Below are positions 51,131 to 61,364 of a stretch of 64,000 nucleotides of DNA, one piece after another. Position 1 is the stretch's first letter, and each line of letters begins with the position of its first letter. Under the pieces are notes generated by a model. It saw only the letters and a list, made by a program, of their open reading frames with translations. It was not told where the DNA came from and ran no database searches. The stretch lies in assembly GCA_919901855.1 (NCBI GenBank), contig CAKKQC010000001.1, positions 190,995 through 254,994 of the forward strand, in the 5' to 3' direction. The position numbers were made by a program, and so were the translations under genes. This DNA is from a bacterium. Lineage in GTDB: Bacteria; Oederibacteriota; CAKKQC01.

Positions 51131-51652
<522 letters not shown>

Positions 51653-51667
<15 letters not shown>

Positions 51668-52333
51668 GCCCCGCGATCCTTCAAGGATGCAGTCTATACG
51701 CAACTGGCCCGCATCGGGAAGGCGGTTGCCAGCCCGAAACGCCTCGAGTTATTGGACCTGCTCGCGCAGGGGAGGCATACCGTCGAGCGCCTCGCCGAAA
51801 TGTCCGGGATGAGCGTTGCCAACGCTTCCCAACATCTCCAGGCGTTGCGACGTGTCAGGCTGGTCGAGCGTGAGAAACGGGGCCTTCACGTCCACTACCG
51901 CCTGGCCGGCAGCGATGTGGCGGGCTTCTTCCTTCGCATGCGGGCGCTTGCCGAGACGCAGTTGTCGGAAATCGAGGAAGCCCGGCGGCAATTCTTCGAG
52001 GACAAGAGCACCGCCGAAGCGGTTGGGCCGAGGGACCTGTTAAGGCGGGTTCGCAAAGGTGAGGCGGTGCTCATCGATGTGCGGCCCGAGGAGGAGTACC
52101 GCGAAGCGCACATTCCGCATGCCATTTCCATGCCGCTGGAGGCGCTGAAGAAGCGCCTGAGAGTATTGCCGCGCAATCGGGAGATCGTGGCCTATTGTCG
52201 CGGACCCTACTGCGTCCTGGCCGTTGACGCGGTTCGGACACTCAGGAAACGCGGTTATCGTGCGGTCCGCCTTGAAATGGGTGTTCTGGAGTGGAGGGAA
52301 GAGGGCATGGTATTGGCAACAGGGCCTGCCTGA
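51653..52333 (+). CDS. ArsR-family repressor fused to a rhodanese domain
   Basis: A 226-residue regulator. Residues ~10-95 are a winged helix (IGKAVASPKRLELLDLLAQG, ERLAEMSGMSVANASQHLQ, REKRGLHVHYRL). Residues ~120-220 are a rhodanese domain (VRKGEAVLIDVRPEEEYREAHI split) with active-site loop AYCRGPYC. The DNA-binding part has no cysteine, unlike the dithiol sensors BigR/SqrR, so sensing probably uses the rhodanese Cys carrying a persulfide. It autoregulates through the palindrome over its start and controls the sulfur genes that follow. Confidence 0.9.
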
Positions 52334-52358
52334 TTCCGTTCAAAGGAGTGCGAAGCAT

Positions 52359-52679
52359 ATGAAGATGGGGATAGTCCTGACCACGACCGAGCCGGAGACC
52401 GTGTTCAACGTCTTCCGGCTGGCGAACTACTCGATAGACAAGGGGGATTACGTGTCCGTCTTCCTGCTGGGGAAGGGGGTCGAACTGGACCAGATCGAGG
52501 ATGCCAAGTTCGACGCGCAGGGCCAGGCGCGGACCTTCCTGGGGAAGAACGGGAAGATTTTGGCCTGCGGGACCTGCCTGAAGATCAGGAACTCGGGAGG
52601 ATCAGAATTGTGCCCGGTGTCGACGATGAAGGACCTGCACGAACTGGTGCGGGACTCGGACCGGGTCCTGACCTTCTGA
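52359..52679 (+). CDS. DsrE-family sulfur-carrier protein
   Basis: A 106-residue cytoplasmic protein of the DsrE/TusD-like fold: MGIVLTTTEPETVFNVFRLA at the start, VFLLGKGVELDQI and a Cys-rich segment ACGTCLKIRNSGGSELCP carrying the likely persulfide-bearing cysteines. SD AAAGGAG precedes ATG 52359; an in-frame extension upstream overlaps the regulator and is ignored. Its stop overlaps the desulfurase start (TGATG), implying coupled translation and probably direct sulfur transfer between the two. Confidence 0.85.
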   Translation: MKMGIVLTTTEPETVFNVFRLANYSIDKGDYVSVFLLGKGVELDQIEDAKFDAQGQARTFLGKNGKILACGTCLKIRNSGGSELCPVSTMKDLHELVRDSDRVLTF

Positions 52680-53815
52680 TGAGGATCTACCTCGATCACA
52701 ATGCCAGCACTCCCATCGCACCCGAGGTGGCCGACGCGATGCGCCCGTTCCTCTCCGGTCACTTCGGCAATCCGTCGAGCAGGCACTGGGCTGGGATCTC
52801 CGCGAAGGAAGCGGTGGAGAACGCCAGGAAGCAGGTCGCGGGATTGCTCGGATGCAATCCCTCCGAGGTCGTGTTCACCAGCGGGGGAACCGAGGCGAAC
52901 AACCATGCCATAAAGGGCGTGTACTTCGCCAACCGGGGAAGGGGCAGCCACATCATCACCTCTTCGGTCGAGCATCCCGCAGTCATCGAGCCGTGCAGGT
53001 TTCTCGAGAGCCTGGGTGCCTCCGTCACCTATCTTCCGGTCGACGGTTACGGACGGGTGGATCCCGGAGCGGTCCGCAAGGCGATCACCCCGCGGACGAT
53101 CCTGATCTCGATCATGCACGCCAACAACGAGACGGGGACTCTCCAGCCCATCCGGGAGATCTCGCGGATTGCCCGGGAGCACAAGGTTCTCCTGCATACC
53201 GATGCCGCGCAATCCGTCGGGAAGATCGGCACGCTGGTCGATGACCTTGGCGTGGACCTGTTGTCCGTCGCGGGGCACAAGCTGTACGCTCCCAAGGGCG
53301 TCGGGGTGTTGTACGTCCGCAGGGGAATCGTCCTGGAGAGGTTCATGCATGGCGCCGGCCATGAGGGAGGCCGGCGCGCCGGAACCGAGAACGTGATGCT
53401 TGACGTCGGCCTGGGAAAGGCATGCGAGCTGGCCGGTGAGTGGATCGGGATGCCCGGAGTCAAGGCCTTTCGGGATCTGTTCTGGCGGGAGCTGAAGGCG
53501 TGGCTGGGGGACCGGATCGTACTGAACGGCCACCCCGAGGATCGGCTTCCCAATACGCTCAACGTGTCCTTCGTCGGACGCGTTGGCGCGGACATTCTGA
53601 GTGCCATGGAGGGGATCGCGGCATCGACCGGGTCGGCCTGCCACGATGGTCTGGTGGAACTCTCGCCGGTCCTGAAGGCCATGGGGGTCGCCCCGGAGGC
53701 CGGCATGGGAGCAATTCGGTTCAGTCTGGGAAGGACGACAACGGAAGAAGAGATAGGGGAAACCCTTCAATGCCTCCGGGCTCTTCCCCGTGGGCTGATG
53801 GAAAAGGAGGCGTGA
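52679..53815 (+). CDS. Cysteine desulfurase (NifS/IscS family)
   Basis: A 378-residue PLP enzyme releasing sulfur from cysteine as a persulfide. MRIYLDHNASTPIAPEV at the start, FTSGGTEANNHAI, the PLP lysine in SVAGHKLYAPKG, RRAGTENV, and the catalytic Cys loop STGSACHDG. The short Cys loop fits group I (NifS/IscS-like). No IscU or other Fe-S scaffold is nearby, so the sulfur may go to the DsrE protein rather than clusters. Start ATG 52679 shares a base with the DsrE stop. Confidence 0.94.
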   Translation: MRIYLDHNASTPIAPEVADAMRPFLSGHFGNPSSRHWAGISAKEAVENARKQVAGLLGCNPSEVVFTSGGTEANNHAIKGVYFANRGRGSHIITSSVEHPAVIEPCRFLESLGASVTYLPVDGYGRVDPGAVRKAITPRTILISIMHANNETGTLQPIREISRIAREHKVLLHTDAAQSVGKIGTLVDDLGVDLLSVAGHKLYAPKGVGVLYVRRGIVLERFMHGAGHEGGRRAGTENVMLDVGLGKACELAGEWIGMPGVKAFRDLFWRELKAWLGDRIVLNGHPEDRLPNTLNVSFVGRVGADILSAMEGIAASTGSACHDGLVELSPVLKAMGVAPEAGMGAIRFSLGRTTTEEEIGETLQCLRALPRGLMEKEA

Positions 53816-53817
53816 AG

Positions 53818-54348
53818 ATGGCGGAACAGGTGATTCAGGGGATTCTGCTCGCGTTGCACAACATCGCCCTGGTGGGATGCGCAGCGGCGCCGTTCTACAA
53901 CCGGGCGCTGGTGCTGAAGCGGGCGCAATACGGGCCCAAGCTCCATTACGAGCTCGACAAGGTCGTCGAGGATACCCTGCAGGGCAATGCCCCGTATTGC
54001 ATCGCGTTTCTCGTGACCCTCTTGGTCACGGGAGTCGGTATGCCGATCAATCACTACGTGTTCCAGGGAGCGTTTCGGGCGACGAGTCCGGTCGCGGTGA
54101 CTGCCCTCGTGGTGAAACTGCTCGCCGTGGGCGGGATGGTCTGGATCATGACGACCATCTTCTGGGGCATCAACCCGCGGATCATGGCGATCTGGCACGG
54201 GTTTGCCCCGGGAGCCGCCCCTGCGGAGGCGGACGAAAAGGCGTTCTTTGCCCTGCGTGCCAGGCGGAAGGCCCTGTGCGAGGTCTGCCTCAAGTTCGCG
54301 ATCGTGGTGTTGGTGGCCAGCGCATTCCTGGGGTTCGGCAGGTCATGA
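53818..54348 (+). CDS. Unknown four-helix membrane protein in the sulfur operon
   Basis: A 176-residue integral membrane protein with four likely helices (about residues 6-27, 60-82, 92-120 and 153-172) and a conserved-looking FWGINPRIMAIWHG loop. Cysteines at residues 21, 60, 149 and 152 (CEVC) could react with sulfur species. No family was recognised; roles such as sulfide or thiol transport, or a quinone-linked subunit, are guesses. SD GGAGG is seven bases before ATG 53818, directly after the desulfurase stop. Confidence 0.7.
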   Translation: MAEQVIQGILLALHNIALVGCAAAPFYNRALVLKRAQYGPKLHYELDKVVEDTLQGNAPYCIAFLVTLLVTGVGMPINHYVFQGAFRATSPVAVTALVVKLLAVGGMVWIMTTIFWGINPRIMAIWHGFAPGAAPAEADEKAFFALRARRKALCEVCLKFAIVVLVASAFLGFGRS

Positions 54349-54391
54349 GCCACACGTGGGTCAATCGCGGCCGTACGGCCGAAAGGGGTCA

Positions 54392-55588
54392 ATGATGAAG
54401 ACGCACGGTCTGGGGTTGTCCACTCGATGCATCCATGCGGGGGATGAGCTGGACGGGCGCGGCGGCATCCATACGCCGCTGTACAACCATTCGACCTTCG
54501 CCTTCCGGAACACGGCGGCCCTGCTGGACGTCGTCGAGGGCCGCGCCATGGGGAATCTCTATACGCGATACGGGTTGAACCCCACCATCCGCTCGGTGGA
54601 GGAGAAGCTCGCCAGCGTCGAGGGCGGCGAACAGGCCCTGGTCTTCAGTTCGGGCATGGCCGCCGAATCGGCGACCTTCCTGGCGTACTGCAAGGCCGGG
54701 GATCACGTCATCTGCCTCGGGGACGCCTACGGCGGGACGATGGAACTGCTGGGGGGCAACCTTCCCGACCTCGGGATCTCCACGACCTTCCTGCTCGGCA
54801 GCGAATTGGACCGCCTCGAAGACACGATCAAGGCCACCACGCGCCTCATCTTCTTCGAGACGCCGACGAATCCGCAGATGGAGGTGTTCGATATCGCGGG
54901 TATCTCCGCGATCGCGCGGCGGCACGGCGTGCTGTCCGTCGTCGACAGCACCTTCGCGACACCGGTGAACCAGTCTCCCCTCGCACTCGGGGCGGATCTG
55001 GTCATCCACAGTACGACGAAGTACCTTGGCGGCCACAGCGATCTGACCGGGGGCGCGGTCATCGGCGCCACGAAGTTCCTCGCCCCCATCTCGGTCTGGC
55101 GCAAGAATCTCGGCCAGATGATGGCACCCGAGGTCGCCTTCCTCCTTGCGCGCAGCCTGCGTACGCTGGTTGTCCGCGTGCGGGCACAGAATGCGGCGGC
55201 CCTGACGATCGCCGAACGCCTCGCCAGCCATCCCCGCGTGGCACGGGTCAACTACCCCGGACTTCCCGGATTCGCAGGCCACGCTCTTGCGAACACCCAG
55301 ATGAAGGGGTTTGGGGGGATGATCAGCTTCACCGTCAAGGGCGATGCGCACATGGTGGCGGCGGTGGTGGACCGGCTCAAGCTGTTTTCAATCGCCCCGA
55401 GCCTGGGCGGCGTCGAAAGCCTGGTGACTCAACCCATCACGACCACGCATCATGGCCTGTCGGCGGAGGAACGGGCACGCCGGGGCATCGTGGACGGCAT
55501 GGTGCGTATTTCGGTCGGGCTCGAGGATGAGGCGGATCTCTGGGGGGATCTCGCGCAAGCACTGGCGACAGGGCCGACCCCCGCCTGA
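54392..55588 (+). CDS. Trans-sulfuration PLP enzyme (Cys/Met metabolism family)
   Basis: A 398-residue fold-type I enzyme of the MetB/MetC/MetY/MGL group. STRCIHAGDELD at the N-terminus, YTRYGLNPTIRSVEEKLA, FSSGMAAESATFL, FFETPTNPQMEVFDI, the PLP lysine in HSTTKYLGGHSDLTGG, and SLGGVESLVTQPI. The family includes cystathionine gamma-synthase, gamma- and beta-lyases and O-acetylhomoserine sulfhydrylase; the specific reaction cannot be told. Position in the operon favours a sulfide- or persulfide-releasing or -fixing role. Two adjacent ATGs (54392, 54395) follow a GGGG SD. Confidence 0.88.
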   Translation: MMKTHGLGLSTRCIHAGDELDGRGGIHTPLYNHSTFAFRNTAALLDVVEGRAMGNLYTRYGLNPTIRSVEEKLASVEGGEQALVFSSGMAAESATFLAYCKAGDHVICLGDAYGGTMELLGGNLPDLGISTTFLLGSELDRLEDTIKATTRLIFFETPTNPQMEVFDIAGISAIARRHGVLSVVDSTFATPVNQSPLALGADLVIHSTTKYLGGHSDLTGGAVIGATKFLAPISVWRKNLGQMMAPEVAFLLARSLRTLVVRVRAQNAAALTIAERLASHPRVARVNYPGLPGFAGHALANTQMKGFGGMISFTVKGDAHMVAAVVDRLKLFSIAPSLGGVESLVTQPITTTHHGLSAEERARRGIVDGMVRISVGLEDEADLWGDLAQALATGPTPA

Positions 55589-59063: not shown

Positions 59064-59067
<4 letters not shown>

Positions 59068-61364
59068 CGCACCCTCCTGACCGCCACGCGCCAATGGCCG
59101 TCCCCGGGCTTGACGCCGAGGACCTCCTGTCCCTGTTCGGTGAAACTCGCGGGCACGTTCTGCACGGGTTCGCCGTCGTCGAGCAGAATCTCGAGCACCT
59201 CCCCGGTGGCGACGCCCTCGAGCGCGACCTTGGCCTTGACGAAGTTCATGGGGCACGCGACCCCCCGGAGGTCGATCGAGCGCGACGGAGTCCCGTCCGC
59301 CTGCCCGCCCGGCGCGGCCGTGACCGGCGGAATCCTGAACTTGAGGCTGGCGTCGAGCGAGGCGAAGAGCGCCTCCACCCGCGCGACCAGGATCTTCGCC
59401 GGCTCCAGCAGGTCCGCGAGCCCGGGCCGGTCGCCCATCCGCCATTCCACCGCGGCGGCCGAGAGTGACAGCGCCTCTCCGCCGACCCAGCCCGGCTCGA
59501 TGAGCCGGGTCCGGAACGCGTCGAAGATCTCGCGGTCCGTCCTCGGCTCGGCGCCGAACGCGACCAGGAGGGAGCGCGCCGCGGCCACCGTGGCGCGGTA
59601 GAGGGCCTCGTTCGCCCCCGGACCGGGGCTTCCCTCGGCAGACTTCAGCTGCGCGCGGGCCTCCGCGAGATCCATGCGGATCACGTCCATGACGCCCGCG
59701 CCGCACTCGCCGGGCCCCCGCCCGGCGAGCGAGAACGGGACGTCCACTCCGAGATCGCGGCACAGCTCGTCGGGAGCCGGATCCGGGATCGTCGCGCTCT
59801 CCGCGACCAGCTTGGCCGTCGTCTCGCGCCCTCCGCCGGCGGCCAGCGCCTCCGCCACCAGCGCGGGGATGCGCCGGGCCGGCACCACGCCCAGCCGCTC
59901 TCCCAGCCGGGCCTGCCCCTCCCGGATGACCGCGCCGGCCAGCACCTCGTAGCAGGGGACGAGCCGGTCGCCGACCCGGCGGGCCCGTCCCTCGAACCCG
60001 ATGTCGCCCGAGAGATGCTGTCCGCACGAGTTGGGGCATCCGCTGATCCGGATGACCGGTCCGTCCGCGGGCACGCGGACTCCCCGCCGGCGCACCTCCG
60101 CGTCGATCGCCCCGGCCAGGTTCCGGGACAGGCAGAGGCCGAGCTTGCACGTCTCCGCCCCGGTGCAGGTGACGATGTCGGCTCCCGCATCCGCGCCATC
60201 AGCCGGCCGGCCAAGCGCCGCGAGCAGGCCGGCCACCCGGTTCCGGGGCACCCCGGTGACGAGGAGGGCCTGGTCCGGGGTGGCCCGGAGCGGACCCCGG
60301 CCGTCCGCCGCCGCCGCGCCGGCGATCGCGCGCAGGTCGTCGTGGCGGAAGTGCCCGAAGGTCCCGCGGACCCGGACCGTGACGCGGCCGGGATCGCGCT
60401 CCGGCCAGAGGTCGCGCGCGATGCGGTCCCTGTCTCCGGCGGGGACGCTGGCGGGAACCCCGGGCGGGTCGCCACCCAGGGCCGGAACCCTTCCGGGCAG
60501 GCCTTCCGCCTCGACCCGGGCGCGCTCCTCGCGGTAAAGCCGCACGAATCCGGCCTCGCCGACGCGATCGAGGACGAACCGGAGCCGCGCCTGATGCCGG
60601 TTCGCGCGGTCGCCGTGGCCATCGAACAGCCGCTTGACCGCCTCCGTGACCGCGAAGATCTCCTCCCGGCGGATGAACTCCTCCACCCGGACCGCGGTGC
60701 GCGGCCGGTTGCCCAGCCCGCCGCCCGCCCAGACCGAGAACCCGGCGGCCCCCCCGGCCCCGAGTCGGGCGAAGAACCCGACGTCGGATACCGACGCGAA
60801 CGCGCAGTCGCGCCCGCATCCCGAGAATGCCACCTTGAACTTGCGCGGCAGGTTGTACGAGCTCGGAGCCTGGAGCTGGTGCTCGGCCACGGCGATGGCG
60901 CAGGGCGCCACGTCGAAGACCTCGGCCGGGCACACGCCCGCCCGCGGACAGGCGGTCACGTTGCGCACCGTGTTCCCGCCGCCCCCGCGGGGCGACAACC
61001 CCGCCGCGAGGAGGCCCTCGACGACGTCCGGGGTATTCTCCAGCGGCAAGTCGTGAATCTGGAGATCCTCCCGCGTCGTCGCATGCACGAGACCGCTCCC
61101 GTGCCGCTCCGCCAGGTCCGCGATCCGGACAAGCTGGTCCGGCGTCACCCGGCCGGCCCCCAGCCGGATCCGGACCATGAACCGGCCGGTCACGCGCTGC
61201 TCGTAGAGGCCCATCGTGACCCGGTGGGCCTTGAACGCTACCGGCGACATCTCGCCGCGGCCGAACCGTTCCACCGCGCCCCGGTATTGCAGCGTCTCCC
61301 GTCGTACTTCCTCCGGCAGGCGCAGGACGAGATCGCCACCCGCCCCCAACATCGTCTCTGTCAC
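59064..61364 (-). CDS. Siroheme sulfite/nitrite reductase fused to a TusA-like domain
   Basis: A 766-residue reductase, most likely assimilatory sulfite reductase making sulfide. Two ferredoxin-like/siroheme half repeats: N-terminal part with [38 protein letters not shown] and [12 protein letters not shown]-terminal half with the Fe4S4-siroheme cysteines in [12 protein letters not shown] and [11 protein letters not shown] helical region (~560-680) follows. Residues 694-766 form a TusA-type sulfurtransferase domain with its Cys-Pro motif ([14 protein letters not shown]). GTG 61364 has a perfect AAGGAGGT SD. Confidence 0.9.

Follow-up and report, generated by a model that had tools for sequence, protein, structure and literature searches.

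Across several unrelated phyla, the gene for a four-helix membrane protein, hereafter MEM, has the same sulfur genes as neighbours, so MEM probably plays an undescribed part in how bacteria handle sulfur. In the window, i.e. the whole 64,000-nucleotide stretch of DNA that was analysed, its gene follows those of an ArsR-rhodanese fusion, a DsrE-family sulfur carrier and a NifS-type cysteine desulfurase. We lean, with only slightly more confidence than doubt, to reading this set as a horizontally spread, persulfide-responsive sulfur-relay operon, wherein DsrE and MEM would exchange sulfane sulfur or electrons.

Operon layout and predicted control

ORF coordinates and profile matches confirmed that the five genes which the sequence-only reading had placed at 51653-55588 are present with the domains and spacing it described. 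The operon and its surroundings contain the following features.

51131..51538, minus strand: RND efflux permease gene lacking its 5' part, with only the 3' end (final ~125 aa) remaining, adjoining the operon
51618..51646, plus strand: sigma-70-like promoter TTGACT-17-TAGTAT, the operon region's only promoter-like site (one observed against 0.8 in shuffles)
51642..51667, plus strand: perfect 10-bp inverted repeat AGTATTCAAG-CATGTC-CTTGAATACT, spanning the -10 box and the start codon
51653..52333, plus strand: ArsR winged-helix and rhodanese fusion, 226 aa, candidate persulfide-sensing repressor (Rhodanese 1.2e-15, HTH_5 4.3e-10)
52359..52679, plus strand: DsrE-family sulfur carrier, 106 aa, with a CGTC motif (DsrE 1.5e-7)
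52679..53815, plus strand: NifS-type cysteine desulfurase, 378 aa (Aminotran_5 6.1e-73)
53818..54348, plus strand: MEM, four-helix membrane protein, 176 aa, distant CopD-like relative (profile and alignment)
54392..55588, plus strand: 398-aa PLP enzyme of Cys/Met metabolism, same direction, 43 bp 3' of MEM (Cys_Met_Meta_PP 7.1e-126)

In gene order, the spacing is 25 bp, a one-base TGATG overlap, 2 bp and 43 bp, and no plus-strand terminator-like site was found between the operon genes, a count close to the shuffle expectation. The desulfurase matches the NifS model TIGR03402 at 1e-131, yet stays under the cut-off of the model; both the PLP lysine motif (HKLYAPKG) and the catalytic-loop cysteine (STGSACH) are intact, which are the residues expected of a NifS/IscS enzyme. 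The permease remnant is a probable rearrangement, insertion or recombination boundary. The GC3 of the ArsR-rhodanese gene is 0.73, versus ~0.88-0.91 in its surroundings. Elsewhere in the window, a sulfite reductase hemoprotein frame (59064-61364, minus strand) runs on into a C-terminal TusA domain; both this gene and a cysteine synthase-like one are found downstream of the operon, and an RND/heavy-metal-binding adaptor gene lies near it.

The genes for ArsR-rhodanese, DsrE, the desulfurase and MEM are predicted to share one common promoter and one ArsR-type operator. If the promoter is real, transcription would begin at the ATG or right beside it, giving a leaderless transcript. The core of the inverted repeat, ATTCAA-N8-TTGAAT (51645-51664), is likely the operator of ArsR-rhodanese and is the single match within the window (up to one mismatch allowed; 0.04 expected). 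Such a sequence, at spacing 8 only, precedes most of the ArsR-rhodanese orthologues examined, in several phyla: the match is exact in L003, L010, L101 and L105, has one mismatch in L012, L019, L102 and L114 and two in L011 and L015, and was not found before ArsR-rhodanese in L013, L014, L103 or L104. Summed over the loci, mismatches amount to 25, against a minimum of 56 among 200 shuffles. Because the consensus was drawn up after viewing the window, L003, L010 and L101, these four are non-independent tests of it, and L105, L102, L012, L019 and L114 are the better ones.

Among the aligned ArsR-rhodanese sequences the rhodanese loop CRGxYC is invariant, whereas the alignment contains no conserved cysteine in the ArsR part or anywhere else outside the rhodanese part. 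Therefore, the sensing thiol is probably located in the rhodanese domain. The regulator thus combines a catalytic sulfurtransferase cysteine with an operator (AWTCAA-N8-TTGAWT) at its own promoter, the combination looked for in a persulfide-sensing regulator. It resembles the SqrR/BigR/SoxR repressors in its ArsR fold and sulfur context, but it lacks the conserved cysteine pair that defines them in the ArsR domain and has the invariant cysteines in the rhodanese loop instead; its score with the BigR model is far under the cut-off. SoxR itself detects sulfane sulfur by two cysteines (PMC12423496).

ArsR-rhodanese genes also occur without MEM. In L103, L104 and L105 they are divergent from or adjoin RND pump genes, and L105 carries a perfect copy of the operator. 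By eye, the place of MEM behind other ArsR-rhodanese genes is taken by a Fer4 membrane protein and a VTT-like protein (L101) or by a YeiH-like protein (L103). These replacements, including the RND pumps of L103-L105, are mixed and not decisive.

Distribution of MEM and its linkage to sulfur genes

A scan of ~85,000 GTDB genomes yielded 21 MEM homologues, 60-74% identical, in genomes labelled as Deltaproteobacteria/Desulfobacterales, Elusimicrobia, Spirochaetes, Myxococcota, Ignavibacteria and Marinimicrobia; L114 is a 22nd close homologue. Whole-genome searches found MEM in 1 of 45 genomes of the phylum of the window, in 4 of 395 of the phylum of the Desulfobacterales locus and in 4 of 295 of the phylum of one Elusimicrobia locus; in that of the Marinimicrobia locus, close copies occur in 3 of 245 genomes and distant copies in three more. 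MEM is thus rare, patchy and highly conserved, which suggests that it, or the operon, has spread horizontally. The plasmid collection contained no MEM homologue.

We assessed linkage by tblastn of the five window proteins and variants of them against the MEM loci. In 15 of the 22 loci (L003, L004, L007-L010, L012-L016, L019-L021 and L114), MEM has an intact DsrE gene no more than 1 kb away; three of these loci (L020, L021 and L114) have a DsrE with one in-frame TGA, and one (L015) is cut by the end of its contig. Fragments of DsrE lie near MEM in L011 and L017, and in L002 and L018 the distance to DsrE is 2.1-2.6 kb; L005, L006 and L022, the last being a partial locus, showed no DsrE near MEM. 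Neither DsrE nor ArsR-rhodanese adjoins the two MEM copies of one MAG, L005 and L006. Besides the window, ArsR-rhodanese adjoins MEM in nine loci (L003, L010-L015, L019 and L114), a plain ArsR lies within 1.4 kb in four more (L008, L016, L018 and L021), and NifS is part of the cluster in five (L003, L004, L010, L013 and L018). Related MEM loci from one phylum are not independent of each other.

At least six gene orders share this content: ArsR-rhodanese/DsrE/NifS/MEM in the window, ArsR-rhodanese/DsrE/MEM/NifS in L003 and L013, ArsR-rhodanese/MEM/DsrE in L012, L014, L015, L019 and L114, ArsR-rhodanese/MEM/DsrE/NifS in L010, DsrE/MEM in Elusimicrobia and MEM/NifS/ArsR/NifS/DsrE in L018. Gene content that stays constant while the order varies argues for functional coupling. 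The sequence-only reading had proposed the order of all five genes as a conserved unit. This did not hold, as the order varies and the trans-sulfuration (Cys/Met PLP) enzyme was found by tblastn in none of the other MEM loci; we therefore regard this enzyme as a local neighbour outside the conserved module. What the reading had set beforehand as its test, linkage of the membrane protein to sulfur genes elsewhere, came out in its favour, with DsrE within 1 kb in 15 of 22 loci; the grouping of a persulfide-type sensor, a sulfur carrier, a PLP enzyme that moves sulfur and an undescribed membrane protein is genuine and recurs.

Several loci have further neighbours. In L005 a gene for a DsbA-like thioredoxin follows MEM, and soxT1A likewise has such a neighbour. 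SAM-dependent methyltransferases of differing types lie close 3' of the cluster in L007, L014, L016, L018 and L101. Arsenic methylation was considered and rejected, as the methyltransferases of L007, L014, L016 and L018 were seen by eye to lack an ArsM-like cysteine pattern. A PNP-type phosphorylase is encoded in L010, and a similar one was recognized by eye in L101.

Family, cysteines and topology of MEM and the DsrE partner

The sequence-only reading could not place MEM. No confident family emerged here either, although a weak and consistent relation to CopD-like proteins did. MEM of the window alone has no Pfam or NCBIfam match. Across the family, 16 of 22 members match the CopD Pfam model weakly over helices 2-4 (best E 9.5e-5, all under the cut-off), and seven match the NCBIfam CopD model (best 1.9e-5); among the matches listed, the best reaches 22.3 bits against the CopD (PF05425/NF033808) cut-off of 32.1. 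In profile comparisons, four of ten single four-helix CopD-like proteins score 22-32, whereas nine unrelated membrane proteins, shuffles and reversals all score 18.5 or less. The collinear match, weak but consistent, marks MEM as a distant relative of four-helix CopD-like proteins. No member matched YeeE/YedE (PF04143) at E<=10 (Pfam) or E<=1 (NCBIfam), or HemJ (PF03653) at E<=10. The proposed structure-based search with the 176-residue protein gave no clear relative, which carries no weight either way: Foldseek returned no PDB match at E<=0.001 with the AlphaFold model (helical, middling confidence, pLDDT 70), the VIA-align matches listed are generic helical bundles at tied Z with no clear relative among them, and a PDB sequence search gave nothing at E<0.1.

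H14, C21, C61, K100, P120, C154 and C157 are conserved in the close MEM family (codons of C61, 53998-54000; C154, 54277-54279; C157, 54286-54288), and the alignment shows H14, G72, G84, K100 and P120 to be invariant across MEM, its distant homologues and CopD-like proteins. MEM and CopD-like proteins (PF05425, NF033808) therefore have in common the weak collinear match and H14, G72, K100 and P120, but the three CopD-like proteins aligned have no cysteines at the positions of C61, C154 and C157; moreover, CopD-like proteins are known from copper handling, whereas MEM stands in a sulfur-gene context. The CEVC motif singled out by the sequence-only reading is present in the close family as CExC near the start of helix 4, but beyond it only C157 is kept. 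C61 and C157 persist in L111 and L112, distant homologues with ~25-28% identity (E 1e-14 to 2e-17), whereas C21 and C154 do not, so the CxxC is not essential in the wider family. L111, at 27.8% identity, keeps the order ArsR-MEM-DsrE. The family-averaged number of K+R is 4.3 in loop 1 and 8.4 in loop 3 and near zero in the other loops. By the positive-inside rule, loops 1 and 3 are therefore predicted to be cytoplasmic, which would probably place C61, C154 and C157 at helix ends on the cytoplasmic face.

The CGxC of DsrE is invariant in the MEM partners apart from the three Marinimicrobia-type loci L020 (2489-2830), L021 (8684-9025) and L114 (7108-7440), whose DsrE genes have a single in-frame TGA exactly at the first cysteine of this motif. 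A conserved hairpin, GAUGCCC-NNN-GGGUAUC, lies ~15 nt 3' of the TGA; it clearly exceeds shuffles in L114 alone, or otherwise if just a short piece is folded. SelB scores above the cut-off in the genomes of L020 and L021. The TGA is a probable selenocysteine codon, and a candidate selenocysteine at this position supports redox or persulfide chemistry at the first cysteine of DsrE. DsrE-like selenoproteins with UxxC have been known since a 2005 report (PMC1088965); the candidates described here differ in being linked to one particular membrane partner and regulator.

A candidate sulfur relay, its alternatives and its meaning

For the chemistry, docking, direction and substrate of such a relay, we infer the following scheme. 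ArsR-rhodanese, bound to ATTCAA-N8-TTGAAT over the promoter, would repress the operon, and a persulfide on the rhodanese cysteine would release it. DsrE would be loaded by the desulfurase, by excess cellular persulfide or by both, and would dock on the cytoplasmic face of MEM. There, C61 and C157, aided by C21 and C154, would form a thiol centre with which DsrE may swap electrons or sulfane sulfur. MEM would then carry sulfur across the membrane or feed electrons into it, as a counterpart of YeeE/SoxT in ArsR-YeeE-TusA/DsrE modules. Of the homeostasis or export system that the sequence-only reading had suggested, the export part fits no better than redox exchange, import or signalling would.

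The relay between DsrE and MEM is favoured because the set follows the logic of known modules. SoxT1A/1B work with the ArsR-type SoxR, the conserved cysteines of SoxT are essential, and carriers such as TusA/DsrE have been proposed to take over sulfur from SoxT (PMC11582611). TsuA-TsuB (YeeE-YeeD) pairs a membrane protein with a soluble sulfur carrier (PMC11073785), and the YTD cluster consists of YeeE-TusA-DsrE, as cited in PMC13293266. Common to these YeeE/YedE-type modules and our set is a membrane protein with conserved cysteines, needed for function in the known modules, linked to a soluble carrier (TusA or DsrE), and to SoxT/SoxR additionally an ArsR-type sulfane-sulfur repressor beside the membrane protein. 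By contrast, MEM has four helices with weak CopD similarity and no YeeE family match, the sensor is fused to a rhodanese, a cysteine desulfurase is often present and TusA was not seen in the cluster as a separate gene. In the open-access literature we found no paper describing this gene set, none with ArsR, a rhodanese domain, cysteine desulfurase and DsrE together, and nothing on CopD with DsrE or sulfane sulfur that describes it. By this comparison, the module logic is known, and the membrane component, apparently from another family, would be what is new.

Against the relay speak the ArsR-rhodanese genes that adjoin RND pumps and have no MEM, the MEM copies of L005 and L006 with neither DsrE nor ArsR-rhodanese beside them, and the absence of C21 and C154 from distant homologues. 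CopD-like ancestry and metal-resistance neighbours weigh partly against a sulfur relay and toward metals, and they keep alive a role in metal or mercury stress, in which MEM would be a CopD-like Cu/Hg/Cd transporter or thiol site and DsrE/NifS would give metal-binding sulfide or thiols. Besides the weak CopD matches in 16 of 22 members (NCBIfam CopD in seven), this is suggested by the RND/heavy-metal-binding adaptor near the operon in the window, P-type ATPases with HMA domains in L005/L006, TolC/RND in L008 and, in L111, MerT and an HMA protein, both ~5 kb away from the distant homologue there. In L114 (3119-5544, minus strand), MerR, an HMA-bearing mercuric-reductase-like (MerA-type) flavoprotein and a small thioredoxin are divergent from the ArsR-rhodanese/MEM/DsrE cluster, and many members of the ArsR family are metal sensors. 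However, metal genes lie near only about a quarter of the loci, are of several unrelated types and stand mostly outside the cluster, whereas DsrE and ArsR(-rhodanese) recur with much greater constancy. A thiolate metal site in the ArsR part is also unlikely, since cysteines are not conserved there. We consider a metal-stress role unlikely overall. Somewhat more improbable still is that MEM acts as a membrane thiol oxidoreductase, linked to quinone or heme, which oxidizes or reduces the DsrE cysteine pair and translocates no sulfur. Selenocysteine in place of cysteine in DsrE would suggest redox turnover, H14 and K100 are retained from the CopD-like scaffold, and the distant homologue in L112 adjoins a monothiol-type glutaredoxin. 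HemJ, a clan relative, employs one His and one Lys for heme; yet the profile comparison with two HemJ-like proteins, the only two compared, gave no signal.

Close linkage of MEM to the sensor gene, together with the precedent of SoxT1B (PMC11582611), would also fit a signal module that relays information on outside sulfur to the ArsR-rhodanese repressor and does nothing else. We hold this to be quite improbable, given that L004, L007 and L020 have MEM and DsrE and no ArsR-rhodanese was detected there, within the limits set by contig ends. The least probable, and hardly credible, is an ordinary supply cluster for cysteine/methionine or cofactor sulfur with an incidental membrane protein. The sulfite reductase-TusA and cysteine synthase-like genes downstream in the window and the thiamine genes neighbouring L018 point that way, but MEM, DsrE and ArsR(-rhodanese) recur jointly in unrelated phyla and differing orders, and assimilation genes do not.

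Returning to the sulfur relay, a bolder version of it, which we put forward tentatively and are inclined to doubt, is that MEM is the first of a novel class of membrane proteins that translocate sulfane sulfur or act as thiol-redox enzymes, derived from a CopD-like scaffold and working with (seleno)DsrE and a rhodanese-based repressor. Few proteins, most of them YeeE-like, are known to pass sulfane sulfur through the membrane or to let it react there. If the relay is true, a second, unrelated membrane family acting with DsrE, a cysteine desulfurase and a rhodanese-based repressor would constitute a new route. It would offer a testable set of cysteines, C61 and C157 foremost, supply persulfide sensing with a compact inducible operator, and place a DsrE selenoprotein in a pathway.
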